Source: Phycisphaerae bacterium (GTDB taxonomy: Bacteria; Planctomycetota; Phycisphaerae; Sedimentisphaerales; Anaerohalosphaeraceae). From it: 64,000 bases of DNA. Position 1 is the first letter of the stretch; every line of letters begins with the position of its first letter. Below, piece by piece: positions 37,523 to 62,566 of the stretch. Location of the stretch: positions 1 through 64,000 of the forward strand of contig JAAYCR010000051.1 of the NCBI GenBank assembly GCA_012729675.1, in the 5' to 3' direction. The notes beneath the pieces were generated by a model. That model made no database searches and had not been told where the DNA came from. It saw nothing but the letters and a program-made list of their open reading frames with translations. The translations under genes were made by a program, and so were the position numbers.

Positions 37523-37563
37523 AAATCTGTTCTCCGGAACGGGATTCTTGATTTTCTCTGAAT

Positions 37564-40500
37564 TTACATATTCGTCTGCTGCTGCAACGAAGCAATACGT
37601 TCTTCTATATTTTTACGATCGGTTTCGGAAACTTGAGCGGGCGTCTGCAACGCTTTTTGAAAATTCTCCAGAGCCGCTTGCGTCTCGCCAAGCGATGCGT
37701 GGACAAGCCCAAGGTGATTGAAGACCTCCCACGGAACCGCCTGTCCATGAACATCATAAAGATGAAGCGCCCGCAGAAGATTTTGTTTGGCCTGCTCATA
37801 CTGTCCGGTTTTGAACTGGGCAAAGGCGTACGTATCCAGATACGTCGGATTGCCCGGATCGGACTGGTGGGTACGGCGGGCATACTGGACGGCCTGGTCG
37901 AGACGTTCATCGTTAATGATCATCAAATACGCCAGATTGTTAAGGATTGAGGCATTGTTCGGAACGTGTTCCAATATCTGCTCAAACAAGTCCATCGCCT
38001 GCGTCATATACGCCCGGTCGGCGGTCTTGAGAAAGGCCTGCACGAGGAGATTGGCTTTTTTAAGCGCCAAATTGTTCCAATCGGAACTTCCGGCATCGGT
38101 GAGCGCAAGGCTCTTGTCAATCCATTCCAGCCCTCGGTTGAATTGCTCGTTGTGCAGCGCCAGACGGTAGTTTAGCAGCATACCCGGCAGCGTGTCCCGA
38201 TTGCTCTGTATCCACTGCATCGCCACGTCCTGCCCGACGGTTTTGAGCATCATCGATAGCGCCGAATCCTGAAATATATCATAGGCGCCCGATTTGTCCA
38301 GAGCGGTCAGGAAAAGCGTCTCGGCCCTGTCCCTTTGCCCCTGCTTGAACTGCACCTGGGCCATGTGGGCATAGGCAACTGCCGCGATGGGCGTATCAAT
38401 CATCTCGGACGCAACGGAAATCGCTTCATTGTATTGCCGATTTTCCGTCAACGCGATCAGATAAATATCCAGCAGGGTCGGGTCGATGTCGCCCTGCTGA
38501 CGGAGCATGTCCCATGCCTGTTTGAGGTACTGTACCGCTTTGGCGGGCTGATTTTGGGAAAGATAAAACCGTCCGGCCCGCATCGGCCAGAAGGACGCAT
38601 TGGGATACAACTGAAGGGTCTGGGTGTAAAACCGCTCCAGATCGTTCACCCGGTTGTTCGTGATATAGAGCGATTCGAGCATCTGCCGCATTTGCAGGGG
38701 CGCCTGTGCACCCTGCAGGCCGGAGACCAATTCGCCGATAGCGGCGTCAATCTGTCGCAGTTCGCTATAGAGGGTTGCCAGGTCCATGCTGACGACGGGA
38801 TTGGGCGTCAGACCTTTGCTGCGCTGCAGGTCTTCGATTGCCCGGCTGGGCTGATTCATCAGCCGGTAAATACGGCCGCGCAGACGCCACGCGCCCGCGT
38901 TGTTCATATCCGATTCAAGATACCGGTTGGTCAGCGTCAGGGCGTCATTCAGGAGGCCATCGGTCATTTTCGACCAGGCTTCCAGCAGCAAGACAAGCTT
39001 TTCGTCCGGATGCCGTTCCTTGAAACTGGCCAGCTTATTGCGTGATTCTTCGGCGTAACCGCTGTCCAGATACTTTTGAATCAGCCATAATTCGTCGTCT
39101 TTTTCAAGGTCGCGTTGCGACAGCAAGTCGAGAAAGTCTTTCAATTCCGAACGGTCGCCCGTGCCTTCGGCGGTCAAGACCAATCCGCGCAACACGTTGA
39201 TATTTGTCGGGTCGGCCTGATGCCTCGTTTTAAGAATCTCTTCGGCCTTGTCATACTGGGCATTTTGCAGATAGTAACGCCACAGCAGATTGTCATCGTC
39301 GCGAAGAAGTTCTTCGGCTCTATCGCTCTGCTGCGTCTGGCGCAGGAAGTCGGCGTAGGCGGCCTTTGCGGCTTCATTGTCCGGATCCATCGTAATGGCC
39401 TGCATATACGCTCTGTCGGACAGTTCGATCAAGCCGCTTCGTTTGGCGACGTCACTTTCGGCTTTGGCTATCCGCAAAGCCATATTGCCGAGCATGACCG
39501 CATTCGCCGTGGTGGGTTGGGTGCGCAACAACTGCTGACGGATCATCAGAGCGCGATCGGGGGCCTGTTCACTGATGATTTCGGCATACACGCTCTGGAG
39601 CTGCCAGTCGTTGGGGTTCAGGACGATGGCCGTGGTGATCGCTCCCAGCAGCTCGTTTTGCTGTTCGGAGGTCAGACGCGTGCCAAGCGCGCTGTTTCGG
39701 TGAAACAGAAGGGACGCATGATTTTTGCTGTAAAGGCTGTTGATGGGATCCATCTGGATCGCCCGTCGGCTGTTTTCAACCGCGGTGTCGAGATTGTCCA
39801 ACTCCTGATAGATGTGGCTTTTGAGATAATACCCGAAGCTGAGCAGAGGCCTGATGGCCAGTGCGTCATCGACCCGCCGCAGAGCAAGGGAATAATTTTC
39901 TTTGAGTAGTTCCACCTGAGCAGCGGCGAGATTACCTTCGCAGCCGTCCAGGTTACGGCTGCGATAAATACGCCATAGGGCCTCGGCGGCGTCGCCATCT
40001 CTGCGTTCCAACGCAAGGCTGAACTGTTCGGCGATTACGTCGGCGTCATTGGTTTTGTCGGCGGCGGCGGCTTGATTGAGCATTTCAAGAGATTTGTCAA
40101 ACTCTCCCTGTGACCGGTAGAAAGCGGCTTTGGCAAGCGCCCGTTGTTTGGGATTTTGGATGTTCTCGGCGGCTTGAAGCTGAAGTTCGGCATTGCGCGC
40201 GACCGGAATGGCCAATGGATCCGGCTCATCGGCACACAGACGAAGCAGGTAAATAGGCTGTGTGCCCGGACGCTGCGACAGGTACGCGTCCAGCAATGCG
40301 ACCGCGTCGTCTTTTTTGTTCTGCTGTAGATAATGAATGCAGGCCGAGCGTAAAAGCGACTCGTCGATCCGATCCGGCGCCGCGGAAATAACCTCAAACA
40401 ATAACTGCTGTTGCCGATCGCGAAGGGTATTAAGGCTGTCGAGCATTGCTTGTTCGGGATCCTGCTCCTCCGCTTCAAGCTGTGCCAGCTGCCGCGTAGT

Positions 40501-42273
40501 TTGTACGATCCGGGCCGAGACCCATCTTAGCTCCAGAACGTTTCTTTCGGTGCTTCCCTCGGGAAGGGCCTCAAGGGCAGTCGTGATTCGGTCGGCGTCA
40601 TGAAGGGCCAGGGCGGCGTCAAGGATGAGGTTTTGGCTGCGCGCCGAGACGCCATAACGCTGCTGGTGCATCTGAGAAAAGTTCATCACCCTATCCCATG
40701 CCTGAAAGCGGGCCATAATGTCGGCATAGTCAAGGATAAGCGAAGGCTTGTCCAGTATGGCGCGCGTACGGCTGAACAACTTTTCAAGGAACTCGCGCTG
40801 CAGACCGAATTGATTGTCGTCTTGAGCGATGCGAGCCAGCACTATACACAGGACCGGATCGATGGACGAAGCCTGTTCGGGGACATCCAACGCCTGGGCC
40901 TGTTCGTAGGCGCGATACAGCAGACGTGCGGCTCGGTCCTGTTCGCCTTTGGCCAGCGCCAGAATCCCCTCCCATTGCTGCACGGTCATGTGCTCGCTGC
41001 TGCCGAAATACTGGCCGATCTGTTCGACCAGCGGCTCGGCTTTTGCAATCCATCGCCGCGCGTCGGCGGAACGGTCCAATGCATGTTCGAGATAACAGCG
41101 GGACAAAAAGACATTCAAGGCGTTTCGATAAGCCATGGTGCGGCCCTGTTGCGGACCGGGAATAACCCGTACACACGGCTGGGTCGCTATGTCTTCAGCC
41201 AGAGCAATTGCGTCTTCCATCGCCGCCGTATCGTCGAAGGCCGAGCCTTTGCGATACAACAGCGAAGCCAGACGGAAACCGGGTTCAAATTTGCCAGGCG
41301 CCAGCCGTGCGGCCTGTCGGGCGGCTTCAATCGCCCGATTCAGCTCCGCCTCGGCCGAGGAGCTGCCCGGCAGTTCGTAGGCCTGCGACAAGACCGTCAG
41401 CAAGTCGGCGTTCGGCGCAGTGGCTTGGATGTGTTGCTCCAGTTCAGCGCGGAGGGCTTCGACCTTTTCGGGGTCGTTTCCGACCATCAGAATCTCATGG
41501 CGGTATCGAACGGCCAGTGCCGCAGCCTTGTTGTCGGCATTTTGGACGGCCTGGTCCAGTTTTTCCAATGACTCCTGTCGCGCTCTGTCGCGGGCATTCA
41601 GCAAGCCGGCTTGAGCGTCCAATTCGCCACGCAGGAGGATCGCCTCGGCCATATACCCGTAGTGTGAGGATACGGTGGGTTCCCGTTCGATGAGCGTTTC
41701 AAATCTTTCAATCGCCTGTGTCAGGAATTCCCGACGCTCGGCTGTTCCGCCGCGCTGAGCGATGGCCAAAGCGGCCCGCCCGTGCGCCAGCAGCATCTCG
41801 GTGTCCACGTCAACGCCTTTTTCACGGCATATTTTGATCAGTTCCGAGGCGTTGTCATGCACATTTTTCCAAGCCTGCCAGGAACCGCTGTCGGCCATTT
41901 CATAGAAATAGCGTTGTATTTCGCGGCGCGCGGGAATATTCTGGGTATCGATATTGATGACGGTGTTCCAGCAGCTCATCGCTTTGGGCCAGTTGGCCTC
42001 GTGGTTTTCGTTATGAATCAGATGGAAATCGGACATTTCAAAAAGTCGTTCGATCTTCCAGGCGTCGGTTTTGCCGTAGGCGAAGGCCCTGCCGAAATAC
42101 CGCTCGGCGGCCTCGTAGTCTTCTGCGGCCAGCGCTTGACGGGCTTTTTCAAGGTTGGTTTCGGGGTTGCGGCCGGACAAATACCGAATCCCCAGCGCAC
42201 CGACGCCGATGGTACACACCGCCAGAAAAGCAACTGCGATGATAACGACTTTTTTATTCAGCTTTTTTGCCAT
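37564..42273 (-). CDS. Very large TPR protein of the exosortase locus
   Basis: 1569 aa. A signal-anchor helix (residues ~8-28, KVVIIAVAFLAVCTIGVGAL) is followed by an almost continuous array of tetratricopeptide repeats (EKARQALAAEDYEAAERYF; AGRFYLSQNQPAKAVQYLKQAW; LGLVHASLGETQAALENFQKA). Comparable large TPR lipoproteins or anchored proteins (PrsT/EpsT type) sit in exosortase/PEP-CTERM polysaccharide loci, where they are thought to scaffold synthesis or export. No catalytic domain was seen. Between the EpsI-like and Wzc-like genes in the same operon. Confidence 0.82.
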   Translation of the reverse strand: MAKKLNKKVVIIAVAFLAVCTIGVGALGIRYLSGRNPETNLEKARQALAAEDYEAAERYFGRAFAYGKTDAWKIERLFEMSDFHLIHNENHEANWPKAMSCWNTVINIDTQNIPARREIQRYFYEMADSGSWQAWKNVHDNASELIKICREKGVDVDTEMLLAHGRAALAIAQRGGTAERREFLTQAIERFETLIEREPTVSSHYGYMAEAILLRGELDAQAGLLNARDRARQESLEKLDQAVQNADNKAAALAVRYRHEILMVGNDPEKVEALRAELEQHIQATAPNADLLTVLSQAYELPGSSSAEAELNRAIEAARQAARLAPGKFEPGFRLASLLYRKGSAFDDTAAMEDAIALAEDIATQPCVRVIPGPQQGRTMAYRNALNVFLSRCYLEHALDRSADARRWIAKAEPLVEQIGQYFGSSEHMTVQQWEGILALAKGEQDRAARLLYRAYEQAQALDVPEQASSIDPVLCIVLARIAQDDNQFGLQREFLEKLFSRTRAILDKPSLILDYADIMARFQAWDRVMNFSQMHQQRYGVSARSQNLILDAALALHDADRITTALEALPEGSTERNVLELRWVSARIVQTTRQLAQLEAEEQDPEQAMLDSLNTLRDRQQQLLFEVISAAPDRIDESLLRSACIHYLQQNKKDDAVALLDAYLSQRPGTQPIYLLRLCADEPDPLAIPVARNAELQLQAAENIQNPKQRALAKAAFYRSQGEFDKSLEMLNQAAAADKTNDADVIAEQFSLALERRDGDAAEALWRIYRSRNLDGCEGNLAAAQVELLKENYSLALRRVDDALAIRPLLSFGYYLKSHIYQELDNLDTAVENSRRAIQMDPINSLYSKNHASLLFHRNSALGTRLTSEQQNELLGAITTAIVLNPNDWQLQSVYAEIISEQAPDRALMIRQQLLRTQPTTANAVMLGNMALRIAKAESDVAKRSGLIELSDRAYMQAITMDPDNEAAKAAYADFLRQTQQSDRAEELLRDDDNLLWRYYLQNAQYDKAEEILKTRHQADPTNINVLRGLVLTAEGTGDRSELKDFLDLLSQRDLEKDDELWLIQKYLDSGYAEESRNKLASFKERHPDEKLVLLLEAWSKMTDGLLNDALTLTNRYLESDMNNAGAWRLRGRIYRLMNQPSRAIEDLQRSKGLTPNPVVSMDLATLYSELRQIDAAIGELVSGLQGAQAPLQMRQMLESLYITNNRVNDLERFYTQTLQLYPNASFWPMRAGRFYLSQNQPAKAVQYLKQAWDMLRQQGDIDPTLLDIYLIALTENRQYNEAISVASEMIDTPIAAVAYAHMAQVQFKQGQRDRAETLFLTALDKSGAYDIFQDSALSMMLKTVGQDVAMQWIQSNRDTLPGMLLNYRLALHNEQFNRGLEWIDKSLALTDAGSSDWNNLALKKANLLVQAFLKTADRAYMTQAMDLFEQILEHVPNNASILNNLAYLMIINDERLDQAVQYARRTHQSDPGNPTYLDTYAFAQFKTGQYEQAKQNLLRALHLYDVHGQAVPWEVFNHLGLVHASLGETQAALENFQKALQTPAQVSETDRKNIEERIASLQQQTNM

Positions 42274-42355
42274 AACTTAAATCTCTCCAAAGGATTTCAA
42301 AACGCCCCGACAAAGACATATCGCCAGCTCTATTGACCAAACGTTCCCAATCCTT

Positions 42356-43159
42356 TTAATGTTCTGAGGGTTCGATTGTTTCGTGTTCCTCTCGGTTGGC
42401 GGAGTCCCAGTCGGGCCAGTGGCCCTCTTCCAGCGCCGGCAGGAGCACCGGAAGGAGTTCTTCGGACGCCTTGACCATTTGTTCGCGATTGGGATAGACG
42501 CGACCGAAGGCATCCACCCCGTAAAACTGCCACTCGACTTTTGAAAAGTACGAGTACTTGCTCAAAAAGTTTTGCGATAGATACATGCGTGTTTCGGTGC
42601 GGCTGCCGCTGTATTGTCCGTTGACGTGGAACAGATAAGCGACATGGAATTCTACGGTCGTCGCCAGCGCCGAGCCGCCCGTGCCGGTGAACAGGATGTT
42701 CTGGTATCGAAGCGTCTGGGGCTGTCCCCCACCTCGTACCAGTGTCGCGGTATCGACATAGCCGGCCTTGCGCCGGTTGCCCCCGCCCACATAGCACTCA
42801 TCCGGCACGTGCGGAACCATATCCGGGTCGCCGGTATAGTAGGTTACAAAGATCGAACAATACCGCAGCGGGCTGGTCGGCTCGGCGTCGGGGTCCTCAA
42901 TGATCCATTGCAGGTAGTCCTCGGTTCCGAGCGTGGCCAGAATGTCGGCGTTGTCGATACGAGTCTTGTTTCGCACGACAAACGGCAGCAGCGCCGCTTC
43001 GTCCATCTCGTGCAGGCTCTGCTTTAGCGGCAGAGGGTACTTGGTCAGATGCCAACCCAGCGCCTGAATCACCAACGACTTGGTCGTCGCCGCAGTCAAG
43101 AGCAGCACCGTACAGACCAGAAAGGCCGGGTGGAGATAGGCTTTGAGCAGTGTTTTCAT
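42356..43159 (-). CDS. EpsI-like exosortase-associated protein
   Basis: 267 aa. One N-terminal transmembrane helix (residues ~12-30), then an extracytoplasmic domain with PHVPDECYVGGGNRR. This resembles the conserved PEP-H/CxPGGGW-type segment of EpsI proteins that accompany exosortases. EpsI is sometimes fused to the exosortase. Here it is encoded separately, its ATG overlapping the exosortase stop by 4 bp with GGAGG upstream. Role: polymer assembly/export partner; mechanism unknown. Confidence 0.75.
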   Translation of the reverse strand: MKTLLKAYLHPAFLVCTVLLLTAATTKSLVIQALGWHLTKYPLPLKQSLHEMDEAALLPFVVRNKTRIDNADILATLGTEDYLQWIIEDPDAEPTSPLRYCSIFVTYYTGDPDMVPHVPDECYVGGGNRRKAGYVDTATLVRGGGQPQTLRYQNILFTGTGGSALATTVEFHVAYLFHVNGQYSGSRTETRMYLSQNFLSKYSYFSKVEWQFYGVDAFGRVYPNREQMVKASEELLPVLLPALEEGHWPDWDSANREEHETIEPSEH

Positions 43160-44154
43160 CTGCGAGCCTCCATACCGGGACCTTGTCCGCGTCGGACAAC
43201 AATAACGTCTTCGGTTATTTCCCCTGCCTCTTCATCGACAAAGAGGTTGCCCATCAGCCAGGCGATGCCGCCGTAAAAGAGAAATGCCAGCGGCAGCATC
43301 AGCATCCCGAGCAAGTCGTGATAGACGCCCTGTGCGTATTGCGGATCCCAGAAGATATAAATCAGGGCGGTGATCAGCACGCGAATAACATTACAAAGCA
43401 CCGCAATCGGGATGGTGGTGATCAGCAGAACCAGCCGCTGCCAGAGCGGACGGTCGTGCAGATACGCCATCGCCACACCCAGCGCGACAAACGCCATCAG
43501 CAGCCGCATCCCGCTGCACGCCTCGGCCACCTGCAGGCTCGGCTCCAGCGGAACGCCGCGGTACAAGACATCAATCACCACGCCGCGCAGCGAAGCTTCA
43601 AGATCGGGAATAACGTTCAGCACGACCGCGGCAGTCTGGGCGGCCAGCCCCTGCATCGGCTGTGTGATCTGTGTATAAAGCCGTCCCGGCAGGGGAACCG
43701 CAAAAAACAGGTAAGCAATCGGCAGCCAGGTCTGTTTGAGCATTGCCCAGCCCCCCACGAACAGGGTCGTTGCCCCGATGGCGGCGATGAATATCAGCGG
43801 GTCGCCATAGGAAAACTTGAACTGAATCGTATTGAGCCAGTACACCATCAACAGGAGAATCAGCGACCCCAAGCCGAAAAACCAACTGGTTCGCGGAGTA
43901 ATGTCGAGTATTTTGTGCCGATTCTGGTGCAGAAAATACAGACTGAACAGCGGAATCAAAAAACCGTGCGACCAGCTCGGATCGGACATCCAGCGGCTGA
44001 CGGTCTTGCTGATTTCAATGTGGAAGAACCAGCCCAGCAGACCGGCAAGGATCGCCAGCTTGACATAGACAGACAGATCAAGCTGCCCCCATCCCGCTAT
44101 TCGCGGCTCGGCGGCTTGTACCGTCGTGTTTGAGGTTTCTTCGATATAGGTCAT
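43156..44154 (-). CDS. Exosortase
   Basis: 332 aa, polytopic inner-membrane cysteine transpeptidase/protease that recognises PEP-CTERM tails. All three catalytic positions are visible: Cys in AEACSGMRLLMAFVAL, Arg in AVLCNVIRVLITAL, and His in YHDLLGMLMLPLAFLF. About eight hydrophobic helices. The N-terminus has the SWSHGFLIPLFSLYFL motif common to the family. A candidate substrate with a PEP-CTERM tail lies at 60519. Which exosortase subfamily it belongs to needs a profile search. Confidence 0.9.
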   Translation of the reverse strand: MTYIEETSNTTVQAAEPRIAGWGQLDLSVYVKLAILAGLLGWFFHIEISKTVSRWMSDPSWSHGFLIPLFSLYFLHQNRHKILDITPRTSWFFGLGSLILLLMVYWLNTIQFKFSYGDPLIFIAAIGATTLFVGGWAMLKQTWLPIAYLFFAVPLPGRLYTQITQPMQGLAAQTAAVVLNVIPDLEASLRGVVIDVLYRGVPLEPSLQVAEACSGMRLLMAFVALGVAMAYLHDRPLWQRLVLLITTIPIAVLCNVIRVLITALIYIFWDPQYAQGVYHDLLGMLMLPLAFLFYGGIAWLMGNLFVDEEAGEITEDVIVVRRGQGPGMEARR

Positions 44155-44180
44155 GACTGTGACGCGCTAAAAACGATTAA

Positions 44181-45761
44181 TCAAAAAAATGTATCACTGA
44201 ATGTGCGTCCGAAGTGCCGGTCCGCAAAGTTGCGGTCATAGATAAAACCAAAGCCGTAGGTGGCGCGGAAGGCGTTTCGCAGGACTGCCTGCCAGCGGCT
44301 CGTGCCGTGCGTACCGACGTTGATCAGGTCGTTGGGCTTGATGAAGAAGTCAGGCTGCTGGCCGCGGGCGATCTTCTGCAAATCCACCAGGACGGTTTCT
44401 TCCTGCATCAGTCCGGCGTCGTTGCGCCCGATGCGGCGGACGACCTCAACCTTTTTCGGCCAGGCAATGGCGTTCAGACCGCCAGCGGTGGCAATCGCCT
44501 GTTTCAGCGTGATGGGCCGTCCGGTAATCGGGATCGCGCCTTGGGCGTTGACATTGCCCATCACCCAAAACTCGCCGATCAAATCCACCGGCACGGTAAT
44601 CCGGTCGCCGGGACGAATGACAACGTTGTAACTCGGATCGCCGGCCAAAAGTCTATCCACGGGGATTTTGATCACCCGGGTGTTCGTTGCTGTGCGTCCG
44701 AGGTCGTCCCGACCAAAGTCGCGGGATATCGGCTGCGGCTGGATATCGTCCCGCCGAATGACCGGCGGCGCCTCGTCCTGAACAGAGTCGATGCCGTCCA
44801 GGGACTTGGGTATCCATTGGCCGTCTTCAAAAACCCATTCAACTTGCGCGGGGTTCTGCGCCAGCGACACCCGCGGCTGTGCGGCATTCGCCGGTTTAAC
44901 GACATCAAGCGTGCCGAGACCATCGGGAATCGCCAAGGCCTCGAGTTCCCGACGTCTGGACGGTTCGGACGAGGAAATGGTCAGCCCCTGCGGCGAAAGA
45001 ACAACGGACGGGGCGATCATATCGAGCAGTTCTTCTTCAGGCGATACGGTCGGGGCTTCCGGTTCGTAAGGTCTCAGGTCAAATACCTCTCTCTGGGGAT
45101 GCTCCGTCACGTCAGGCGTTCTGCCGAGCAAGGCGGGAGCGGCACGATCGACTACATCCCGTGAGACATAGATATAGCTGACATTGAATTCCGAGACGCC
45201 GCCGGCCTGCGCGATCGCGTCGGTCAGACGGAACGTATAGCGGGGAAACCCGAAGCGTGCCGATTGGCCAATGCCCTGACCGACGATGGAATACACGCGC
45301 GATTGCGATTGGACCAGTGTTACGGTAACCGCGGGTTCTTTGAGAATCGTCGGCGATAGGATATTGCCCAACTCCTGCTCTAATTGCAGTTCGGTCAGGC
45401 CGGCGGCCTGCACCATGCCCACATCCGGGATCGAGACGCGCCCGGTCTCCGTGACAACATAATCGTTGACAAAGGCCTGCCCGTCCTGAAACAGCTCAAA
45501 AATATTGATGCGGATCACGTCCCCCGGCCCAAATACATAATCCGTTTCGTAAACGATTAAATCCTCCGGACGCGGCTCCTCGGCGCCGTCATAGGTCGGG
45601 GAGGGCTCATCGGCAACGCCCAGCGTATCCAGAATCACATTGATGGCCGGTGTGGGTTCAAACCGACCCAGCTGGGTCGGATCCAATGGGTCGTTGTAGC
45701 AGCCGGAGAGACCGAGGATTAATATCGCCGCAACTGCAGTCCTTAAAATTATGTTCATCAT
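44181..45761 (-). CDS. Outer-membrane polysaccharide export lipoprotein (Wza/GumB-like)
   Basis: 526 aa from the ATG at 45761. Lipobox ILGLSGC; Poly_export domain at about residues 60-200 (VFGPGDVIRINIFELFQDG ... VTETGRVSIPDVGMVQAAG) then SLBB-like segments (IPVDRLLAGDPSYNVVIRPG, FWVMGNVNAQGAIPITGRP). A ~170-residue, Pro/Glu-rich insertion (residues ~210-370) separates the first SLBB-like region from the rest, longer than in Wza. First gene of the exosortase operon. AGGGA lies ~11 nt upstream of the chosen start. Confidence 0.87.
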   Translation of the reverse strand: MMNIILRTAVAAILILGLSGCYNDPLDPTQLGRFEPTPAINVILDTLGVADEPSPTYDGAEEPRPEDLIVYETDYVFGPGDVIRINIFELFQDGQAFVNDYVVTETGRVSIPDVGMVQAAGLTELQLEQELGNILSPTILKEPAVTVTLVQSQSRVYSIVGQGIGQSARFGFPRYTFRLTDAIAQAGGVSEFNVSYIYVSRDVVDRAAPALLGRTPDVTEHPQREVFDLRPYEPEAPTVSPEEELLDMIAPSVVLSPQGLTISSSEPSRRRELEALAIPDGLGTLDVVKPANAAQPRVSLAQNPAQVEWVFEDGQWIPKSLDGIDSVQDEAPPVIRRDDIQPQPISRDFGRDDLGRTATNTRVIKIPVDRLLAGDPSYNVVIRPGDRITVPVDLIGEFWVMGNVNAQGAIPITGRPITLKQAIATAGGLNAIAWPKKVEVVRRIGRNDAGLMQEETVLVDLQKIARGQQPDFFIKPNDLINVGTHGTSRWQAVLRNAFRATYGFGFIYDRNFADRHFGRTFSDTFF

Positions 45762-46110
45762 AGTCCATTTATCCCTAAGGGTCCTGTCGTTGTTTTCTAT
45801 GTGCCGTTTGTCGAACACACTAAAAGTCTGTCCATCATAGAGTTAGAGGTCTCTTTATGCAACCTTCAAACACAAAAAAAAACACACAGATTATATCGGC
45901 GTTTAACGCGGCGCAGTTAATCTTCTTTTTTCGGCAATTATCGATAAAAGACCCCAAAAATAAAGACGAACTTCCCTGCTCAAAACAAATTACACATTTC
46001 TCTATACCCAAAAAACAGAAAGAGAGTTCGAATAAGCCGACGAAAACCACGCGGTTTCGATAATAAGTGGTTTTATGTACAGGGCATGTCTGGGCTATAT
46101 TTGTCTCCTT
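45762..46110. other. Spacer between the GH13-GT5 gene and the exosortase operon
   Basis: AT-rich, about 350 bp, no supported gene. Contains the promoter region of the export lipoprotein operon, but I could not place a -35/-10 pair confidently. No clear terminator. Confidence 0.4.
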
Positions 46111-49100
46111 TTAGTCCGCTTTTGGTAAATCTTGAACAGAAGTTGCCTTGATCGCTTCGAAATCCGTATTTTCGAGACGCTTTTTGCACCGTGCGGCTTG
46201 GTTTCTCAGGATGCGATCATCCGCGGCCTGTGCCTCAGAAAGGCGTTTTTCAAGGTTGAAATCGGGATTATTGCCAAGCACCCCATATAGACGACACAAA
46301 ATAACCTCAATTTTATTCCGAACCGAGGCGACCCGGCACCCCAGTGCCTGAACAAGGAATTGCGCCGCTTCGGGAATGGTGATGCCGGTTTGCAGAATGA
46401 CGTCCGGAAGCTCATGGTCGGGGGTATAGGCCATGCCCACCGCCAGCCGAATGGCGTCGATATGGTCGGGCAACTCGACCCCGGCCATAATCCGGTAGGT
46501 CTGAATATAGTCCCTCAGTAGCCGCAGCCAGCGATGGTCGGTCGTGAAGGCGTTATACGACAATTCGCTGTAGCGTTGTCGCCGCGGGCGGCCGTTTTTA
46601 TCGAAATACCGCAGGCGACGACCGTGGTAATAGATTTCCACCGCGTCCAGCAGCGCGTCCAGCAGGGCTTCGCCCGAAAAACCGCTGAATTTGACCCCGT
46701 TGGGCGGGGTTTCCTTGTCGCCGAAGTCGCGATCGCAGACGGTGCGGATCAGGCCGTCCTGATGGTGGGCGACGACGGGCGTGCCGCCGGCATGGGCCTC
46801 CTGCTGGCTGATGCCGCACGGCTCGCCGACTTCCCCGCCGGAGGGCATCACGAAATACTGGCTGCCGACGTACAGATTGCGATACAGCGACGGCGACAGC
46901 GACCCTTCGGGATAGTAGGCAAATCGCCCCTGAAATTCGGGCATAGCGGCGATGCGGCGAAAGTGCATATCATAGCGGCGCCCATCAAAGCTGTCCTCGA
47001 CGCGCCCGCAGATAACGTATTGAATGCGTTCATCCCGTGACAAGAAATATTCCAGCACAGTCGGCCCCATCATTTTCCACGGTTCGTATGTCACATAACG
47101 GTGGCCGCGGTCTTCATACACTTTCCAGTCCACCAACAGCTCAAAGCCCTTCTGTTTGCAGACACGATGCAGCATCGAAAAGATGATGTGGTGCGTCTTG
47201 TCATCGTCGGGTTTGAGCCGGATATTCGGGTCGCCCTGCAGGGCGGGTTTGGCCAGCCGTTTGGCGTAGGCGTATTTGGCAAACAGACGCTTGCGGGCGG
47301 CCTTGTCATAGACTTCGAGAATGCTTTTTTTCGAGCGAAACCAGAACCGCTGGCGGGCGGCCATGTGAAACCCGTTGCGCCGTCCAAAGAAGCGACCCTG
47401 GGCTTCAAGCTTGTCAAAGAGCCAAGCGTGCTGAAAAACATTCGGCTCGGCCAGAATGCGGCGTTTCATCGCGCGGCTGACCGTGCTGATGTAGTCGGAG
47501 GTCTTGAGCATAATTGACATCAGATCGATCCGCGGGCCGCACGGGCCGAACGGGTCCAGACACACATCCGAATGCCCGACGGCGTCCAGCCCGATAATCA
47601 GGCTGTAATAGTACCGCTTGAACGGGTTGGCCTCATCCATCACGATACAATAGGACGGGTGCGGGTTGTGCATCATGCTCCCGACGCGCGTCCGGGCAAA
47701 GTGCGGGTCTCCGTGAAAGTCCGGCCAGCGCTTCAGATAAGCCGGCAGCAGCCAGGTTGGCCATTCGTTGGTCTGGATGATCGACGGATAATAATTGTAC
47801 GCACGCAGCGCCTCCAGCGCCCCCTGCGACAGAATGCGGGTGCGGCGCAGTTTGTCCTCGCAGGTGAAACCGCCGTAAGGGGCATCCATATACTTGGCAT
47901 TCTCCAGATACAGCACCTCCACGCGGGAGCGTTTGCCATGCTTGATACGCAGGAGGTTGCTGCGCAGGATATTGACCACGTCCGGCGTGGTGTTGCGATG
48001 AATGCTCTGCGTGCTGTCGTCAAATTCGGGAAACTGCACGGTAAAACTGTGGCCGTCGTAACGCGGCGCGTAATTTTTGTGGATCCGCTCGCGGCTGGAT
48101 TCATACAGCGGCGTAATGACAACCACGTGAAAGCCCATTTCACTGAGCACGTCGGCGATATCGGTGGTGTAGATGCCGACGCCGCCGGAATGGCCGCTGA
48201 ATTGCGATTCGGGCGAGACCAGAGCGATGGTTCCCAGACTCATTCCGTGAAGAATATCCGCCGCCGAGCGGCAGACAAACGCTTCAAACTGATCTTTTTC
48301 GTTGACGGCGATGCGCATCAGGTGTTCGATGATGGCCTGCCGCCGCGGCGCATCGTTTTCGCTGATCTCTGCCAGCAGACACGCTAACGCGGTGTGGCCG
48401 GTTTGATTTTTCTTGTATATCCACGTCGCCAGCGTCACGAACAGTTCGCTGAACTGCGCAAAACTGTCCTCGCCCGAATCGGCCGCGGCCAGAAACATCC
48501 GCGCCGCATACGCATAACGAATGCGGTCCTCTTTGCCGTAACGCTGATAGCGCAGGAAGGAGTCCAGCAATAGCTGCCGGCGCGTCGCCGCGTTGCTTTT
48601 ATCCACAAATTCATAGACATGCGACGAAACCGGTTCCAGTACGCCGCCCAGTCCCAGATGAATCAGCTCCAGACCCGACCAGCATTCACGGTAGCCGCGT
48701 CGGGTCTTTCCCTCGGCGTTGTTGTACCGTTCGACCATCTCATAGACGCCGTCCGGCTTGAAGACCGAATGGTCCAGCAGCAGATTGAAGTCGCGGGCAA
48801 CGGCCTGCTGACCTTCTTGGTAGGCGTTCGGAAAATTAAAGACACACAGAAAGATTTGTTTCTTGTAGATGCGCAAGAATGCGGCAATACGCCCGTTTCC
48901 GGTGCTTAACGGAATCAGCCGGCCGCGTGTAAAGACCGGGTGCTCGTCGGCAAACTGCCACAGCCCACGCAGGTATTTGCCGAACCCCTGAAGAATCGGG
49001 TAATGGGCCAGAATATGGTTTCGCGTGCGGGCCTCTTCGTGCCACGGATGGCGAAAGCGATTGTTGACCCAGTGTTTCCAGCACTCAGTATAGGCGATGT

Positions 49101-51654
49101 CGAAGCGATGGGACATCGAGCCGGCCTCCGGTCCGGGCAGACGGCTGATGTGATACATCATCGGGCCGTAACTGCTGAACGTCAGGAAAGCGGCCGTCGG
49201 CCAGATCATATTCTGATAATTGCTGGCCGGCGATTCCTCGTCGTGGCTGTTAAAGAAGGTCAGCGTCTGGCCGCCGGCGGTTTGATAGATGGTTGACAAA
49301 TACTTCAGGTTGTCGTTCAACCCCAGCGGCGCATCCGGCGTCTGTCCGCTGCGAATCGATTCCATATTCTTAATCAAAGAGTTATATGGAATCGTCCCCG
49401 CCTTGAGCATGCGCGCCTCGTTGCCGTGCCATTGTTCCGAATAGGCCAGCAGCGCGTTGGGTACGGTCTTCTGAATCTTGTAGCACATATACAGCAACGG
49501 GATATTCGGCTCGTCGGACCCGCGCAGATCGACGGGATCAAAGCCGCCGACGGTCACTTCGCCGAACAGGCGTGCGGCCCCGTGCTGACGCGGATCGACC
49601 GGAAAGACCGTGTCAAACCCGTGCCCGACGTCCACACGCAGACCGAAGCCCAGCCGCGTCAGTTCGATGCCGATCTCGGCCAGCCGCTCGACGTTGTCAA
49701 AGTCGCGCATATTGACCATAAAGCTGTCCAGCCACTCGCTCCATTCGCCGTCCCACCCGGCCCGGCGGGTCAGCACACCCTTGCTGTTGAGAATATACGC
49801 CGGAAAATGGTAGTCGTATTCGGTATTGGCGCGGGAAAAATGCGACAGCATACAGAGCAGGATTTTCATCCCGAGCGCATCGGCCTTTTTGCGCAGCCGC
49901 AGCAGCGCGTCGAGGCCGCCCAGGTCGCGGCGGACGGTCTTGCCGTCAAATACGGAAAACACCGACGGATCCGGCCCGGCCTCACCCGCCCAGCCCAGTT
50001 CCAGCGCCCCCAGCGGATACAGACGGGTATAGCCTTCTTTGCGGATATCTTCCAGTTGCGCGGCGATGTCGTCGAACGTCCCATAGACGAACAGGCCGTT
50101 CTCGTCTTTGACCGGCGACAGAGTGCTGTCGAGCTTAAGATTGAGCGTGTCGGCGTAAAAGCTCAACACCCGCTGACCGCGTTCGTCGGCGCTGGATTTA
50201 ATCAGGCCGCAGGCCTGCTCGTGAAACTCTTCCCATTGCCAGGTCTTGCCGTCGTTGAGCGAAAACTGCACCGCGTAATGACACCAGCCGTTGCGGATCG
50301 GCAGCGCGGCGGTAAACCGCACCGCACCGGCGATAGCTCTGGATTGCGACTGGGCCATTTCGACCGGTTTTTTGCGATAGCCGTTCAGCGACCACAGCAC
50401 CCGCGCGCGGATGTGGTCTTTGCGCACGGTGCGGGGCTTGGGCACATCGACCGTGATAACACGCGGCTCCGAACGCAAAATCGTCCGATTGACGCGGGAC
50501 GGCGGAAAGTTGAACGGCCGGTCGGTCAGAATATCTTCCAGCAGCGAGCTTATCTCCAGCGTTATCCCCCGGCACACGCTCTTATCGGGATGGTTCCAGT
50601 AATACAGCGCCGAATATAGAAGGCGTCGGGCTTCTTTGACGTGCTTTTTGCGACGGATATGCTGCTGGAGCTGCTTGACGGCACTGCGTACGTCATCCGG
50701 CTCATCGGACAGCAGCATCTGTTCCATCGCAGCAAAGTCGGGCTCTTTGGCAAAAAAACTCAGGCGGTCGATCCATTTATGAATCCATCGGCCATGATCG
50801 TGAAACAGGTCGGTGCGGAGATTGCGGAAGCGGATGGACTGGCAGGCCGAGTGCGCCGACATCGCATCGATGGTCTCAGGGGTGCAGATGCGCACGGCCT
50901 TGAGCAGATTGCCGGGCAGATGATAGACGATGACAAGCCCGTTTTCATCTTGAAAGAGCGACTTAAAGCCCATCAACAGCCGTTCAGCCGATCCCGTCTG
51001 GAAAGACTTGTCAGGGCTAAGCCGCCCCACCGCATCGGTCAGCACCGCCTTGATCTTGGGGCGAAGGCGGGTTTTGGCGCCTTTGGCCGCCAGAAACAGC
51101 GCGACCACCGCGTCGGTTTTGGCCAGCCACCGCCAGAACTCGTCCAGCAGAATGATATTATCGGCCTGTTTGAGCGTTTCCGCCCAGTCCGGCTCATCAA
51201 ACGCGCCGCCGGCGGCCTTCAGTTCCGACAGCGTCCCGGCCAGAATATCCTTGTGCGACTGCAGAAAACGCAGACTGTTCAGGCGGACTTCAGTGACGTG
51301 CATCGCCGGGCGGCACACGTGAAACAGCACTCGCTCCAACACCCCGACCAGCAGACAATGCCGCTGCATCAGACGTCGTTTTTCCGGCCGCAACAGTGCC
51401 CTATTGAGAATGATTTCATGCGGCATCAGCTTGGCCGTGCCCTGCTCAAAAGGACAGACGCGAAGCTGTATCCTCTTTTGAATAATAAGCTTATAGTAGG
51501 AGGGGGAAAATTTCTTAAACCGCCCAAGCGTATCCAGCAAGGCCGTTTCGAGCACTATTTTCTGGTCGTTGTCCAGCGACTCCACAACCGCCAACGGGCT
51601 GGTGAAATGAACCCTGCACGACGCATCAACATGGAACACCAGAACCGTGTCCAT
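46111..51654 (-). CDS. GH13-like domain fused to GT5 glycogen-synthase-like domain
   Basis: 1847 aa. Residues 1-430: unassigned, mostly helical. ~430-525: beta-sandwich (ARVLWSLNGYRKKPVE ... FSLNDGKTWQWEEFH). ~530-960: alpha-amylase-like barrel with GLRVDVGHGFD (nucleophile Asp candidate, ~671), LLAYSEQWHGNEARM (acid Glu, ~738) and FFNSHDEESPASN (~803). ~960-1130: linker. ~1146-1660: GT5-type glycosyltransferase with a modified KxGGL-like SGHSGGVGIYTTDIADVL and PSGGEVGEPCGISQQEAHAG near 1601-1620. ~1660-1847: helical. Fungal alpha-1,3-glucan synthases combine the same two families. It may make a storage or surface alpha-glucan. No strong ribosome-binding site; start tentative. Confidence 0.82.
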   Translation of the reverse strand: MDTVLVFHVDASCRVHFTSPLAVVESLDNDQKIVLETALLDTLGRFKKFSPSYYKLIIQKRIQLRVCPFEQGTAKLMPHEIILNRALLRPEKRRLMQRHCLLVGVLERVLFHVCRPAMHVTEVRLNSLRFLQSHKDILAGTLSELKAAGGAFDEPDWAETLKQADNIILLDEFWRWLAKTDAVVALFLAAKGAKTRLRPKIKAVLTDAVGRLSPDKSFQTGSAERLLMGFKSLFQDENGLVIVYHLPGNLLKAVRICTPETIDAMSAHSACQSIRFRNLRTDLFHDHGRWIHKWIDRLSFFAKEPDFAAMEQMLLSDEPDDVRSAVKQLQQHIRRKKHVKEARRLLYSALYYWNHPDKSVCRGITLEISSLLEDILTDRPFNFPPSRVNRTILRSEPRVITVDVPKPRTVRKDHIRARVLWSLNGYRKKPVEMAQSQSRAIAGAVRFTAALPIRNGWCHYAVQFSLNDGKTWQWEEFHEQACGLIKSSADERGQRVLSFYADTLNLKLDSTLSPVKDENGLFVYGTFDDIAAQLEDIRKEGYTRLYPLGALELGWAGEAGPDPSVFSVFDGKTVRRDLGGLDALLRLRKKADALGMKILLCMLSHFSRANTEYDYHFPAYILNSKGVLTRRAGWDGEWSEWLDSFMVNMRDFDNVERLAEIGIELTRLGFGLRVDVGHGFDTVFPVDPRQHGAARLFGEVTVGGFDPVDLRGSDEPNIPLLYMCYKIQKTVPNALLAYSEQWHGNEARMLKAGTIPYNSLIKNMESIRSGQTPDAPLGLNDNLKYLSTIYQTAGGQTLTFFNSHDEESPASNYQNMIWPTAAFLTFSSYGPMMYHISRLPGPEAGSMSHRFDIAYTECWKHWVNNRFRHPWHEEARTRNHILAHYPILQGFGKYLRGLWQFADEHPVFTRGRLIPLSTGNGRIAAFLRIYKKQIFLCVFNFPNAYQEGQQAVARDFNLLLDHSVFKPDGVYEMVERYNNAEGKTRRGYRECWSGLELIHLGLGGVLEPVSSHVYEFVDKSNAATRRQLLLDSFLRYQRYGKEDRIRYAYAARMFLAAADSGEDSFAQFSELFVTLATWIYKKNQTGHTALACLLAEISENDAPRRQAIIEHLMRIAVNEKDQFEAFVCRSAADILHGMSLGTIALVSPESQFSGHSGGVGIYTTDIADVLSEMGFHVVVITPLYESSRERIHKNYAPRYDGHSFTVQFPEFDDSTQSIHRNTTPDVVNILRSNLLRIKHGKRSRVEVLYLENAKYMDAPYGGFTCEDKLRRTRILSQGALEALRAYNYYPSIIQTNEWPTWLLPAYLKRWPDFHGDPHFARTRVGSMMHNPHPSYCIVMDEANPFKRYYYSLIIGLDAVGHSDVCLDPFGPCGPRIDLMSIMLKTSDYISTVSRAMKRRILAEPNVFQHAWLFDKLEAQGRFFGRRNGFHMAARQRFWFRSKKSILEVYDKAARKRLFAKYAYAKRLAKPALQGDPNIRLKPDDDKTHHIIFSMLHRVCKQKGFELLVDWKVYEDRGHRYVTYEPWKMMGPTVLEYFLSRDERIQYVICGRVEDSFDGRRYDMHFRRIAAMPEFQGRFAYYPEGSLSPSLYRNLYVGSQYFVMPSGGEVGEPCGISQQEAHAGGTPVVAHHQDGLIRTVCDRDFGDKETPPNGVKFSGFSGEALLDALLDAVEIYYHGRRLRYFDKNGRPRRQRYSELSYNAFTTDHRWLRLLRDYIQTYRIMAGVELPDHIDAIRLAVGMAYTPDHELPDVILQTGITIPEAAQFLVQALGCRVASVRNKIEVILCRLYGVLGNNPDFNLEKRLSEAQAADDRILRNQAARCKKRLENTDFEAIKATSVQDLPKAD

Positions 51655-52470: not shown

Positions 52471-53352
52471 CTATGCGGTGGCCGCGGCGGCTTTTTGGCC
52501 GGGCTGACGGTCGGCGGGGGCGGTCTGCCCGCGAGAGACTATCACGCCGGTCGGGCATTTGTCCATCGCCGTCTGCGTTGCCTCGGACGGCGCGTAGCTT
52601 TCGTAGTTCATCTTCGCCAGATTGTCGGCGACGGTGAACAGATCGGATTGCTTGGCGCAAATGCCGCATCCGATACATCCGACCTTACAGAATGTCCGCG
52701 TCGTCTTGCCGCTTTCGCGGCTGCTGCAGGCCACCGTCATCATATTGTCCTGCGTAAACGGAACCATCTGAATCAGGTTGCGCGGACACGCCTTGGCGCA
52801 CGCCCCGCATCCGGTGCATTTGTCATAATCCACCGTCGAAAGCCCATCGACAATATGCAGCGCGTCAAATTTGCACGCCCGTGTGCAGTCGCCGAACCCC
52901 AGACAGCCGAAATGGCACGCCTGGACATCCGGCTGGGCATTGGCGCTGGTACAGCTTTCGATGCCGTCATACGCGGCGTGAAATAATTTATCCTCCCGAT
53001 GAGCCCGGCAATGCACAATGGGTCTGCTCGGGGCGCCGCCGCCGGAAATCTGAAGGTTCAGCGCACGCCCGATGGCGACGCTGGTCTCCGCCCCCCCGGG
53101 AGAGCACCGGCCGATCAATTCCGGGTTGGCCACAACCGCCTTGGCATAAGATGCACACCCGGCAAAGCCGCACGCCCCGCAATCGATATGCGGCAGGACA
53201 TTATACACTTCCTCTACCTTCGGATCGGTCTCTACCCGCAGCTTAATGCTGGCAATCAGCAGCACCACGGCAAACAGTGTCGCCAGCCCCAGCGCCAGCA
53301 CCGCCGCCGGCAAAGCGTTGTGAATCATCTCCATTGCGGACGCAAGTATCAT
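52471..53352 (-). CDS. rnfB: Electron transport complex subunit RnfB
   Basis: 293 aa. One N-terminal membrane helix (ALPAAVLALGLATLFAVVLL), then the 4Fe-4S domain (LPHIDCGACGFAGCASYA), and ferredoxin-type clusters (CHFGCLGFGDCTRACKF; CTGCGACAKACPRN; CKVGCIGCGICAKQ). RnfB takes electrons from ferredoxin and delivers them toward RnfC. AGGAAA upstream. Last of the six rnf genes here. Confidence 0.93.
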   Translation of the reverse strand: MILASAMEMIHNALPAAVLALGLATLFAVVLLIASIKLRVETDPKVEEVYNVLPHIDCGACGFAGCASYAKAVVANPELIGRCSPGGAETSVAIGRALNLQISGGGAPSRPIVHCRAHREDKLFHAAYDGIESCTSANAQPDVQACHFGCLGFGDCTRACKFDALHIVDGLSTVDYDKCTGCGACAKACPRNLIQMVPFTQDNMMTVACSSRESGKTTRTFCKVGCIGCGICAKQSDLFTVADNLAKMNYESYAPSEATQTAMDKCPTGVIVSRGQTAPADRQPGQKAAAATA

Positions 53353-53393
53353 ATTAATTTCCTGTTTTCGATTTCATTGACGGATAACGGATA

Positions 53394-53981
53394 TCATATC
53401 ATTCCCGCAAAACCCATAAACGCCAGCGTCAAAAGCCCGGCGGTAATCAGCGTAATCGGCGCTCCCCGCATCGGCCCGGGCACGTCCGCCAGTTCCATGT
53501 TCTCGCGGATCCCGGCCATAATGCAGATCGCCAGCGTAAACCCGATCCCCGCCCCCGCGCTGAGCACCACCGCTTCGTCGAGCCTCTTGATTTCCCACAG
53601 GTTCAAAAACAGGCACAACCCGAGAATCGCACAGTTGGTCGTAATCAGCGGCAGAAAAATGCCGAAACTCTCGTACAGCGACGGGAAAAACTTGCGCAAA
53701 TACATCTCCACAAGCTGCACCGCCCCGGCAATCACCAAAATAAAACACAGATACCGCATCACCTCCAGCGGCGTACCGATCAGAAACGTATGGTCAATGA
53801 TCCACGTCAGCGTCCCCGCCAGCGTGACGACGAACGTCACCGCGCAGCCCATGCCGAAGGCCATGTCGATGCGTCCCGACACCCCCAGGTACGGGCAGAT
53901 TCCCAAAAATTTGGTCAGCACCAGGTTATTGACGACAACGATGCCGATAAAGGCCAGCAGCAGCGTATGTAATGTATCCAT
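53394..53981 (-). CDS. rnfA: Electron transport complex subunit RnfA
   Basis: 195 aa with six predicted transmembrane helices. Conserved RnfA features: NLVLTKFLGICPYLGVSGR near the N-terminus with the cluster-binding Cys, and LITTNCAILGLCLFL with a second. RnfA and RnfE together hold a membrane [2Fe-2S] centre. 41 nt upstream of rnfB. Confidence 0.93.
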   Translation of the reverse strand: MDTLHTLLLAFIGIVVVNNLVLTKFLGICPYLGVSGRIDMAFGMGCAVTFVVTLAGTLTWIIDHTFLIGTPLEVMRYLCFILVIAGAVQLVEMYLRKFFPSLYESFGIFLPLITTNCAILGLCLFLNLWEIKRLDEAVVLSAGAGIGFTLAICIMAGIRENMELADVPGPMRGAPITLITAGLLTLAFMGFAGMI

Positions 53982-54005
53982 AATCTCTGTCCGCTCAGTG
54001 TGTTA

Positions 54006-54611
54006 TTATGATTTCGATTTATTGGTAATCACGCTGACCAGCGCCAAAATCAGGCCCAGCGTTACGAACGCCCCGACCGGCATCCCCATCCCGGCCCACG
54101 GCGTAAACCACGACGGCATCACCGGCGTCTCAAACAGCTTGCCCGTCGCCAGCAGTTCACGAATCGTCGCCAGCAGGCACAGGGCCAGTGTAAAACCCGC
54201 CCCCATCCCCAGCGCATCGACAATGCTGACCAGCACGCCGCTCTTGCTGGCGCACGCTTCGGCCCGCCCGATGATGATGCAGTTGACGATAATCAGCGGG
54301 ATATACGGCCCCAGCGCCGCGCTCATATCCGGCAAAAACGCCTTGAGGTACAAATCCGCGATGGTCACGAACGTCGCAATCGTCAGCGTAAACATCAGAA
54401 TCCGAAGATGCGGCTTGAGGAGATTTCGCATCAGGCTGACAACGATATTCGAGCAGACCAGCACAAAAATAACGCTCAGACCCATCGTCAGTGCCGGCTT
54501 CATCGCCGCCGTCACCGCCAGCGTCGGACACATCCCCAACAGCAGCCGCAGCACCGGGTTGCTGTCCCACAGCCCGGCGGTAAACGTTTTTCCTAAACTT
54601 TGACTGGACAT
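54006..54611 (-). CDS. rnfE: Electron transport complex subunit RnfE
   Basis: 201 aa, six helices, RnfE/NqrD family, paralogous to RnfA. Key segments NPVLRLLLGMCPTLAVTAAM and PLIIVNCIIIGRAEACASK carry the conserved cysteines. Start preceded by GGA-containing sequence; 24 nt before rnfA. Confidence 0.92.
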   Translation of the reverse strand: MSSQSLGKTFTAGLWDSNPVLRLLLGMCPTLAVTAAMKPALTMGLSVIFVLVCSNIVVSLMRNLLKPHLRILMFTLTIATFVTIADLYLKAFLPDMSAALGPYIPLIIVNCIIIGRAEACASKSGVLVSIVDALGMGAGFTLALCLLATIRELLATGKLFETPVMPSWFTPWAGMGMPVGAFVTLGLILALVSVITNKSKS

Positions 54612-54661
54612 TCCAAAAGTCCTTAATCCACAAATAATTTCATATCAAGTTCTATAAAAAA

Positions 54662-55291
54662 CTACTTCAGCAAGCCTTCCGCTTTCAGCTTTTCCTTGAT
54701 CGGCACCATCCACGCATTCAGCGTCGTCACCACGGCCTGACTGGATACTGTCGCCCCGCTGATGGCCACGATCTCGGCGTCTATCACTGCCGCATCGCCA
54801 GACTTCGTCAGGGTCAGCGTCCCTACAGGAGCGCCGATAAACTGCGGCTGATAAAACCCCCCCGCCGCAGGCGTGATATTGATCTTGTCGCCGAAACCTG
54901 GAGTCTCATTGCTGAACAGCACACCGAACCCGGCCATTTTTTCAAATGCGGCGTCCACCGCCACCACCAGCCGTATCTTGTCGGCAAAACCCGACCCTTC
55001 ACACACAAACGCCCATCCGGCCGTCTGACCGGAACCATCCAGCCCGCGTTTGACATCCACCGGAATTTCCTTGCCCCCGATCTCTATCGCCAACGGCTCA
55101 GCCGCCACCGATTCAAACCGCTCCGCCTCGGTCAGCAGGCCGCCGGCCAGCCTGTTGAAGCGGTCGATGGTGTTCTGCTCGATGCGCGGTTTCCAGGCCG
55201 CATCGGTAATGGCCAGCAACAGCCCGAACACAACCGAGCTGACCATCAGCAGCCAGCTTTCCTGAAAAAAGAACTTGATCTTATTTGACAT
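54662..55291 (-). CDS. rnfG: Electron transport complex subunit RnfG
   Basis: 209 aa. One N-terminal helix (LLMVSSVVFGLLLAITDAA) anchors a periplasmic FMN domain. The covalent FMN-binding motif is VAISGATVSSQAVV, fitting S/DGATxS/T. Overlaps the end of rnfD by 11 bp; GGAGG lies 8 nt before the ATG. Confidence 0.9.
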   Translation of the reverse strand: MSNKIKFFFQESWLLMVSSVVFGLLLAITDAAWKPRIEQNTIDRFNRLAGGLLTEAERFESVAAEPLAIEIGGKEIPVDVKRGLDGSGQTAGWAFVCEGSGFADKIRLVVAVDAAFEKMAGFGVLFSNETPGFGDKINITPAAGGFYQPQFIGAPVGTLTLTKSGDAAVIDAEIVAISGATVSSQAVVTTLNAWMVPIKEKLKAEGLLK

Positions 55292-56291
55292 GGGGAGTGC
55301 CTCCTGCGGGAGTCAGTTTGCAGAACCGGTCAATCAGCGGGCTAAGCGAATTCATAATCAGCACCGCGTACATCACGCCCTCTGGATATTCGCCGACGAT
55401 GCGGATCAGCATAATCAGCGACCCGACGCCGATTCCGAAAATCCACATCCCCTTGGTCGTCAGCGGAGCCGTCACCGGGTCGGTGGCGATAAAGAACGCA
55501 CAAATCAGCATGCCGCCCCCCAACAGGTGCAGCAGCGGATTGATAAAACCCTCCGGCTTGATCAGCCACGCTGTCAGAGCAATCACACCCGCCGACAGCA
55601 GCACCGCCGCCGGGATGTGCCACGTAATTGTCCGCCGGATAAGAAGGTACGCCCCCCCGATCAAAAACGCCAGCCCGCTGGTCTCGCCCAGACACCCCCC
55701 GACCTTGCCCCAGAACGCACCCGACGTTTGCTCATTTATATAATGCGCTTCAACCTGTCCCTTCTGTACGGCTTTGCTCCAGGCCAGCGGCGTTGCCTGC
55801 GTTGTGGCGCTGGTGTTGGCTGCCGAGATCGTCGGCATCAACGCATCCACTGTCGACGGAACCGTCCACGTCGTCATCAGCGTCCCGAATGACGCCGCCA
55901 GAAACGCCCGCGCGGCCATCGCCGGATTGAAAATGTTTGACCCCAGCCCGCCGAAAGCCATCTTGGCAATGACAATGGCAAATACGCTGCCGATAACGGC
56001 TATTGAGAATGGGATCGCAGGCGGCAGCGACATCGCCAAAATCACGCCCGTCACCACCGCGCTTAAGTCGCCGATGGACGTCGGACGTCTGCGAATCCTG
56101 TTGCACACCCACTCGCTGACCACGCACGACACGACGCACACGCCGATCACCGCCAGTGCACGCACGCGGAAAAACACACCCGCCGCAATCACCGCCGGCA
56201 AAAGCCCGATCAGAACATCGCCCATCACGACCCGCGTGGACAGCTTCGAGCTGACATGCGGCGCCGGAGAAACGGTTATCTTACTTAACAT
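55281..56291 (-). CDS. rnfD: Electron transport complex subunit RnfD
   Basis: 336 aa, about ten membrane helices, RnfD/NqrB family. The covalent FMN site region is FFIATDPVTAPLTTKGMWIF, with Thr in the expected place. N-terminus typical (SPAPHVSSKLSTRVVMGDVLIGLLPA-like, conserved PH). AAGGATT precedes the ATG. Followed by rnfG with an 11-bp overlap. Confidence 0.92.
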   Translation of the reverse strand: MLSKITVSPAPHVSSKLSTRVVMGDVLIGLLPAVIAAGVFFRVRALAVIGVCVVSCVVSEWVCNRIRRRPTSIGDLSAVVTGVILAMSLPPAIPFSIAVIGSVFAIVIAKMAFGGLGSNIFNPAMAARAFLAASFGTLMTTWTVPSTVDALMPTISAANTSATTQATPLAWSKAVQKGQVEAHYINEQTSGAFWGKVGGCLGETSGLAFLIGGAYLLIRRTITWHIPAAVLLSAGVIALTAWLIKPEGFINPLLHLLGGGMLICAFFIATDPVTAPLTTKGMWIFGIGVGSLIMLIRIVGEYPEGVMYAVLIMNSLSPLIDRFCKLTPAGGTPHVK

Positions 56292-60416: not shown

Positions 60417-60518
60417 ATATAATATGGCTCGTGTGGGTGTGAAGTGTTGTGAAGTTGTAGTAGTTTGCAGTCTGTGTGTAGTTAAAGTGGTTTATTAACT
60501 GTTTTGGAGGATGGAAAG

Positions 60519-61193: not shown

Positions 61194-61225
61194 TTAGTTT
61201 TGATCTTTCGTTAAAGCTTTACAAA

Positions 61226-61253
61226 GGGCTGCTTTTTAGCAGCCCTTTTTTTT
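61226..61253 (+). terminator. Intrinsic terminator of the PEP-CTERM gene
   Basis: GGGCTGCT (61226-61233), TTTT loop, AGCAGCCC (61238-61245), then T8. Textbook form. Confidence 0.93.
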
Positions 61254-61319
61254 GTGTGAAGAACGACGTCTGCTCTGATTTAATGATATTGGAAAACTAG
61301 TGGGAAAACTGGGGACAGA

Positions 61320-62405: not shown

Positions 62406-62453
62406 GGCACTTTCCAGACATCAGAATCTTTACTAATGGCAAAAGAACTGAAA

Positions 62454-62566
62454 GGGTCAGAGACCTTTTATGTCCACTCGCCATCAATTTCTTGTCTTTA
62501 TTTCGCATTGCCTTATTATCTCTTTAATCATTTCTTCTTAAAGGTGTCTGACCCCGTCTCATTTTC
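62454..62566. mobile_element. MITE-like unit, copy 2
   Basis: Second copy of the unit at 58858-58971, same orientation, about 90% or more identical by eye. Terminal inverted repeat GGGTCAGAGACCTTTTA against GGGTCAGACACCTTTAA. Located between the ankyrin and lipoprotein genes. Confidence 0.78.

Follow-up and report, generated by a model that had tools for sequence, protein, structure and literature searches.

The locus raises the question of what a bacterial protein makes when it joins a GH13-like unit and a GT5-like unit on one polypeptide. The gene was analysed within a window of 64,000 nucleotides (contig JAAYCR010000051.1 of a Phycisphaerae bacterium, positions 1 to 64,000). It occupies 46111..51654 on the minus strand, with the ATG at 51654 and the stop codon at 46111, and encodes a fusion protein of 1847 aa. 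The original prediction had given this single open frame with the same extent and length, without naming the strand. The start methionine lies in line with the start of most homologues in the alignment.

Pfam searches, profile comparison and a pair of AlphaFold models, one for residues 1-1135 (mean pLDDT 65.8) and one for 1136-1847 (mean pLDDT 70.8), gave the domain order. All coordinates are on the minus strand. A lineage-specific N-terminal domain of mixed helix and strand (residues ~1-390; 50485..51654), delimited by the model and by null searches, is followed by a beta-rich domain with an Asp-box-like SxxDGKTW segment (residues ~391-490; 50185..50484; model). The GH13 catalytic barrel with its C-terminal beta domain (residues ~491-1020; 48595..50184; profile and fold) is connected by a helical linker (residues ~1021-1135; 48250..48594; model) to the GT5 catalytic unit of GT-B fold (residues ~1136-1730; 46465..48249; Pfam, Foldseek, VIA and hhalign). 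The protein ends in a C-terminal helical extension (residues ~1731-1847; 46114..46464; model).

The N-terminal domain (~390 aa) had no Pfam match, no significant match among PDB sequences and no relative elsewhere in the phylum genome sample. Weak BNR matches to the beta-rich domain were obtained in 4 of the 11 full-length members. About 430 N-terminal residues had originally been described as unassigned; an unassigned lineage-specific domain does stand there, and its extent was revised to ~390 aa, with the beta-rich domain continuing to residue ~490. No 19-residue stretch of the window protein reached a hydropathy of 1.6 (maximum 1.36), which makes a signal peptide or membrane segment improbable; the fusion protein is probably cytosolic.

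GT5 enzymes are retaining glycosyltransferases that lengthen an alpha-1,4-glucan with glucose taken from a nucleotide sugar. The C-terminal half was matched by Pfam PF08323 (E=1.3e-19) and was aligned by hhalign with a GT5 profile across all of E. coli GlgA (100%, E=5.8e-39). Its fold relatives included starch synthase IV in Foldseek (E=2.8e-15) and E. coli GlgA in VIA (Z 23.9, rmsd 3.4 over 440 residues). GPCR-fusion entries among the fold matches were rejected, as their glycogen-synthase domain is a crystallisation partner. H1329, R1497, K1502 and E1611 are invariant in all 11 full-length sequences and correspond to GlgA H161, R300, K305 and E377. Arg1497 and Lys1502 are located in HRVCKQKG (residues 1496-1503; 47146..47169, minus strand), and Glu1611 sits in the EPCG motif within GEVGEPCGISQQEAHAG (residues 1607-1623; 46786..46836, minus strand). 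Lys15 of the GlgA donor loop (KTGGL) is not kept: in the corresponding loop, SGHSGGVGIYTTDIADVL (residues 1153-1170; 48145..48198, minus strand), the position is taken by His1156 and is variable in the homologues. The NCBIfam GlgA score of 93.9 bits (cut-off 328) is far under every NCBIfam GlgA cut-off, and the GT5 unit forms its own deep clade in the tree. A second GT of locus L012, placed beside the fusion GT5 clade in that tree, was set aside because of its very long branch.

Identification of the GH13 half depended on the search method. An HMM search had been proposed as a check: with Pfam alone, the Alpha-amylase model gave no match to the window protein at E<=1, while profile-profile and fold searches did find GH13. 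Read in isolation, the Pfam result would have counted as a refutation by the original prediction's own standard. A single-sequence PDB search also gave no match. The profile of the 11 family sequences matched alpha-amylase 3dhu around region I (E=1.7e-4), and sucrose isomerases and TreS in the C-terminal part of the GH13 unit. Comparison of the GH13 half with a GH13 profile in hhalign gave 98.2% (E=2.8e-13), and 96.6% (E=4.7e-10) in a second run with default settings; the controls (N-terminal domain against GH13, GT half against GH13, GH13 half against GT5) all remained below 1%. The top PDB matches in Foldseek were GH13 proteins (best E=3.9e-7), including acarbose hydrolase, MalZ, TVA II, GlgE and TreS, and GH13-fold proteins filled 50 of 50 rows in VIA. 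Model confidence is low in the barrel (pLDDT mostly 30-60), and for this reason the fold matches support the GH13 assignment and do not prove it by themselves. The half falls below all curated GH13 family cut-offs. In a tree of the GH13 proteins at hand it forms a separate deep clade on a long branch, outside every subfamily tested. On this evidence, residues ~490-1020 are a deeply divergent GH13 unit. The predicted pairing of GH13 with GT5 is borne out by hhalign, Foldseek and VIA alike; the proposed AlphaFold modelling, done in two pieces, yielded models matching the GH13 and GT-B folds, with the barrel at low confidence, and the proposed phylogeny placed each domain in a deep clade of its own.

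GH13 enzymes cleave or transfer alpha-glucosidic bonds via a covalent Asp intermediate, and the residues for this chemistry are complete in the fusion. D675, E740, D805, R673, H605 and H804 are invariant in all 11 full-length sequences. Region I is GMKILLCMLSHFSRA (residues 595-609; 49828..49872, minus strand) with the invariant His605; region II is GFGLRVDVGHGFD (residues 669-681; 49612..49650, minus strand) with Arg673 and the nucleophile Asp675. Region III is LAYSEQWHGNE (residues 736-746; 49417..49449, minus strand) with the presumed acid/base Glu740, and region IV is FFNSHDEES (residues 800-808; 49231..49257, minus strand) with His804-Asp805. In the hhalign alignment with the GH13 profile, the His of region I, the nucleophile of region II and the HD of region IV are in register; regions II and IV were placed by this alignment and region III by motif only. 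At the position of the region I Asp, which is near-universal in GH13 and usual, not catalytic, Cys is found in 10 of the 11 sequences (Cys601 in the window protein) and Asp in L012. All five motifs quoted in the original prediction were recovered across both halves, and none of the 11 full-length sequences departs from their catalytic residues. Both folds and both sets of catalytic residues, complete and invariant, are present on one chain.

The 11 full-length sequences are 54-77% identical, all come from Planctomycetota and keep the whole architecture. A short-peptide scan of ~85,000 genomes yielded 17 loci, all with Planctomycetota in their record titles and mostly Phycisphaerae/Sedimentisphaerales; the scan used six exact peptides only, and absence outside Planctomycetota does not follow from it. 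By whole-genome search, the full protein was found in 2 of 392 phylum genomes and in 16 of 397 class genomes, the latter all in two families of one order, and it was intact in most of those 16. Judged by large-frame GT5 matches, about half of the 39 genomes of the window's family carry the fusion, and it is absent from the sampled genus g2. The GH13-unit profile matched only two genomes of the phylum sample over its length (G000 and G336), and four other matches were short C-terminal matches of ordinary GH13 proteins. Neither the GH13 unit nor the N-terminal domain was found alone in the phylum genome searches. Plasmids gave stand-alone GlgA matches only, and viral contigs gave none. The fusion is permanent across this lineage. 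At three loci the N-terminal and GH13 parts lie in separate or overlapping frames, divided near residue ~500-600 (L018:7971-11554; G401:C23:15605-19155; G745:C1:6082-7878), by a natural gene split, a frameshift or an assembly error.

The original prediction had also placed the gene beside a polysaccharide export operon. This is correct: a Poly_export/exosortase/TPR/tyrosine-kinase operon starts 292 bp downstream of the stop codon on the same strand. The region 35222-45818 of the window holds an exosortase (EpsH type), a TPR protein of 1569 aa and a Wzz/tyrosine-kinase protein of this operon; it resembles XrtA/PEP-CTERM systems, with scores below the XrtA-specific cut-offs. Upstream of the fusion gene, a putative CMD-like ORF and Rnf genes were found, the latter as an Rnf/Nqr electron-transport cluster at 52471-56291. 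Towards the window end (60001-64000) the G+C content drops from ~0.57 to 0.41; an ankyrin-repeat protein is encoded there at 61632-62405, and this part is possibly acquired DNA. That the fusion might make a secreted alpha-glucan, handled by the adjacent operon, is very unlikely. The gene order is kept in the close relatives L002 and L010, but in them only; the operon is not adjacent in eight more distant loci (L004-L008, L012, L014 and L017), and neither a signal nor a membrane segment was seen in the protein. Adjacency to the export operon is specific to the genus, and the suggestion of glucan export is weakly founded.

The best contextual link to alpha-glucan metabolism is found in the sister family, where a second large GT5/phosphorylase-like gene adjoins the fusion in three genomes (G628, G745 and locus L012). 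Such second genes lie at L012:7436-12124, L087:11795-13723 and G745:C78:761-2566; the product has 643 aa in L087, and in G745 and L012 it belongs to longer frames of 1544 and 1563 aa, respectively. In L012 the frame adds glycogen-debranching (GDE_C) and GH13 domains and is a second multi-enzyme alpha-glucan protein. The window's own genome (99.9% complete) contains a GDE-GH57-GT4/5 cluster with a GT4/GT5-type synthase on contig C10, GlgB and MalQ on C90, and two phosphorylase-like genes, which rules out the fusion as sole glycogen synthase. GDE, synthase and phosphorylase-like genes are likewise present in related genomes without the fusion. Because an ordinary glycogen gene set is present in the same genome, the fusion is an additional alpha-glucan enzyme and not the only route. 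GlgC was not found above cut-off in the 10 genomes searched, the own genome included; together with the loss of GlgA Lys15, this argues for a donor other than ADP-glucose.

Since both sites are complete on one chain, synthesis coupled to remodelling is the most likely function. The fusion is thus read, with middling confidence, as a cytosolic, self-remodelling alpha-glucan synthase with two active sites. The GT5 half would extend an alpha-(1,4)-glucan by retaining transfer from nucleotide-glucose, probably UDP-glucose, and the GH13 half would reshape the same chains. With Asp675 carrying the covalent intermediate and Glu740 serving as acid/base, it would cut and re-join or trim the chains by transglycosylation, with hydrolysis less expected, or in primer making or trimming; one polypeptide would make and shape the polymer. 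The self-contained alpha-glucan factory suggested in the original prediction is plausible. The substitution of the region I Asp in nearly all members and the low-confidence barrel model speak against this synthase reading, as does the separate glycogen set in genomes with and without the fusion, which leaves the need for a second synthase unexplained. A more specific proposal, that a soluble enzyme starts, extends and re-joins its own chains from UDP-glucose via the N-terminal domain and forms a second, distinct storage or structural alpha-glucan beside glycogen, seems unlikely.

Two other readings concern the GH13 half. It might be catalytically dead and serve as a glucan-binding scaffold or regulator of the GT5 half, like the GH13-fold 4F2hc proteins, whose chains are among the VIA fold matches. 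The Cys at region I and the very long branch in the GH13 tree fit such a role, but the full triad, the Arg and both His residues are invariant across 54-77% identity and L012 has kept the Asp, and we regard a dead domain as unlikely. Alternatively, the half could be GlgE- or TreS-like and feed or extend the glucan by maltose-1-phosphate or trehalose chemistry, with the GT5 unit as its partner. TreS 4wf7 is its best VIA match (Z 14.3, rmsd 3.6 over 181 residues), the TreS model is matched weakly by all 11 members, and GlgE chains occur among the Foldseek matches. The TreC/TreS-like set is best in hhalign, which also favours the MalZ-like set, with sets unequal in size and a long-branched tree. 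Against this, the fold matches spread over GH13 in general, with MalZ, neopullulanase and branching enzyme among them, and the unit lies outside every subfamily in the tree, so that GlgE- or TreS-like chemistry appears quite unlikely. It is highly improbable that the fusion is a bacterial counterpart of fungal alpha-1,3-glucan synthase with alpha-1,3-glucan as product: the fungal Ags proteins share the pairing and the order, GH13 then GT5 (PMC5753165, PMC4309609), but the bacterial protein lacks a signal peptide and a multi-membrane domain and has an extra lineage-specific N-terminal domain.

Returning to the coupled synthase, the known systems place it as follows. With bacterial GlgA and starch synthase (GT5), the fusion shares the GT-B fold and the equivalents of E377, R300, K305 and H161, and it differs from them by insertions, the GH13 partner and the missing Lys15 of the KTGGL loop. 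The fold and catalytic triad are shared with the GH13 TreS/MalZ/MalL/sucrose isomerase group, with weak sequence matches in the C-terminal part and region I, whereas the fusion GH13 stays under the curated cut-offs and in a separate deep clade. The GlgB-MalQ and TreS-Mak fusions of Neisseria suica likewise join successive bacterial alpha-glucan enzymes, though from other families, and the parts consulted of the review describing them contain no GH13-GT5 fusion (PMC11046441). In the open-access papers searched, the GH13-GT5 fusions were fungal and no bacterial one was found, the pairing possibly being listed in CAZy; the bacterial match for GH13-GT5 was a cluster of separate genes (PMC9124407).

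Comparison with fungal alpha-glucan synthases, drawn in the original prediction, is fair: in Ags1/Mok, AgsB and AgsE, an N-side GH13-type amylase and a C-side glycogen/starch-synthase domain likewise form one polypeptide (PMC5753165, PMC4309609). As described, the fungal enzymes carry a signal peptide and a transmembrane region, their GH13 domain is extracellular and their C-terminus multi-membrane, whereas the bacterial fusion appears soluble throughout and has its own ~390-aa N-terminal domain. Without a signal or membrane segment, the fungal export layout is missing from it. The catalytic pairing is already known from fungal cell-wall synthesis; the topology differs, the N-terminal domain is new and the GH13 clade is divergent. 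Production of alpha-1,4-glucan has been connected with the synthase domain of fission yeast Ags1p, and models for Aspergillus assign the joining of chains to the GH13 domain (PMC5753165). By analogy, the bacterial fusion may do the same, chain making and joining, in the cytosol, and its presence points to a second route to alpha-glucan in uncultured Planctomycetota of sediments. The chain-joining role of the fungal GH13 domain is inferred and hard to test because the proteins are large and membrane-bound; a bacterial version that is soluble and keeps both active sites intact would be easier to purify and could directly show how the pairing acts.
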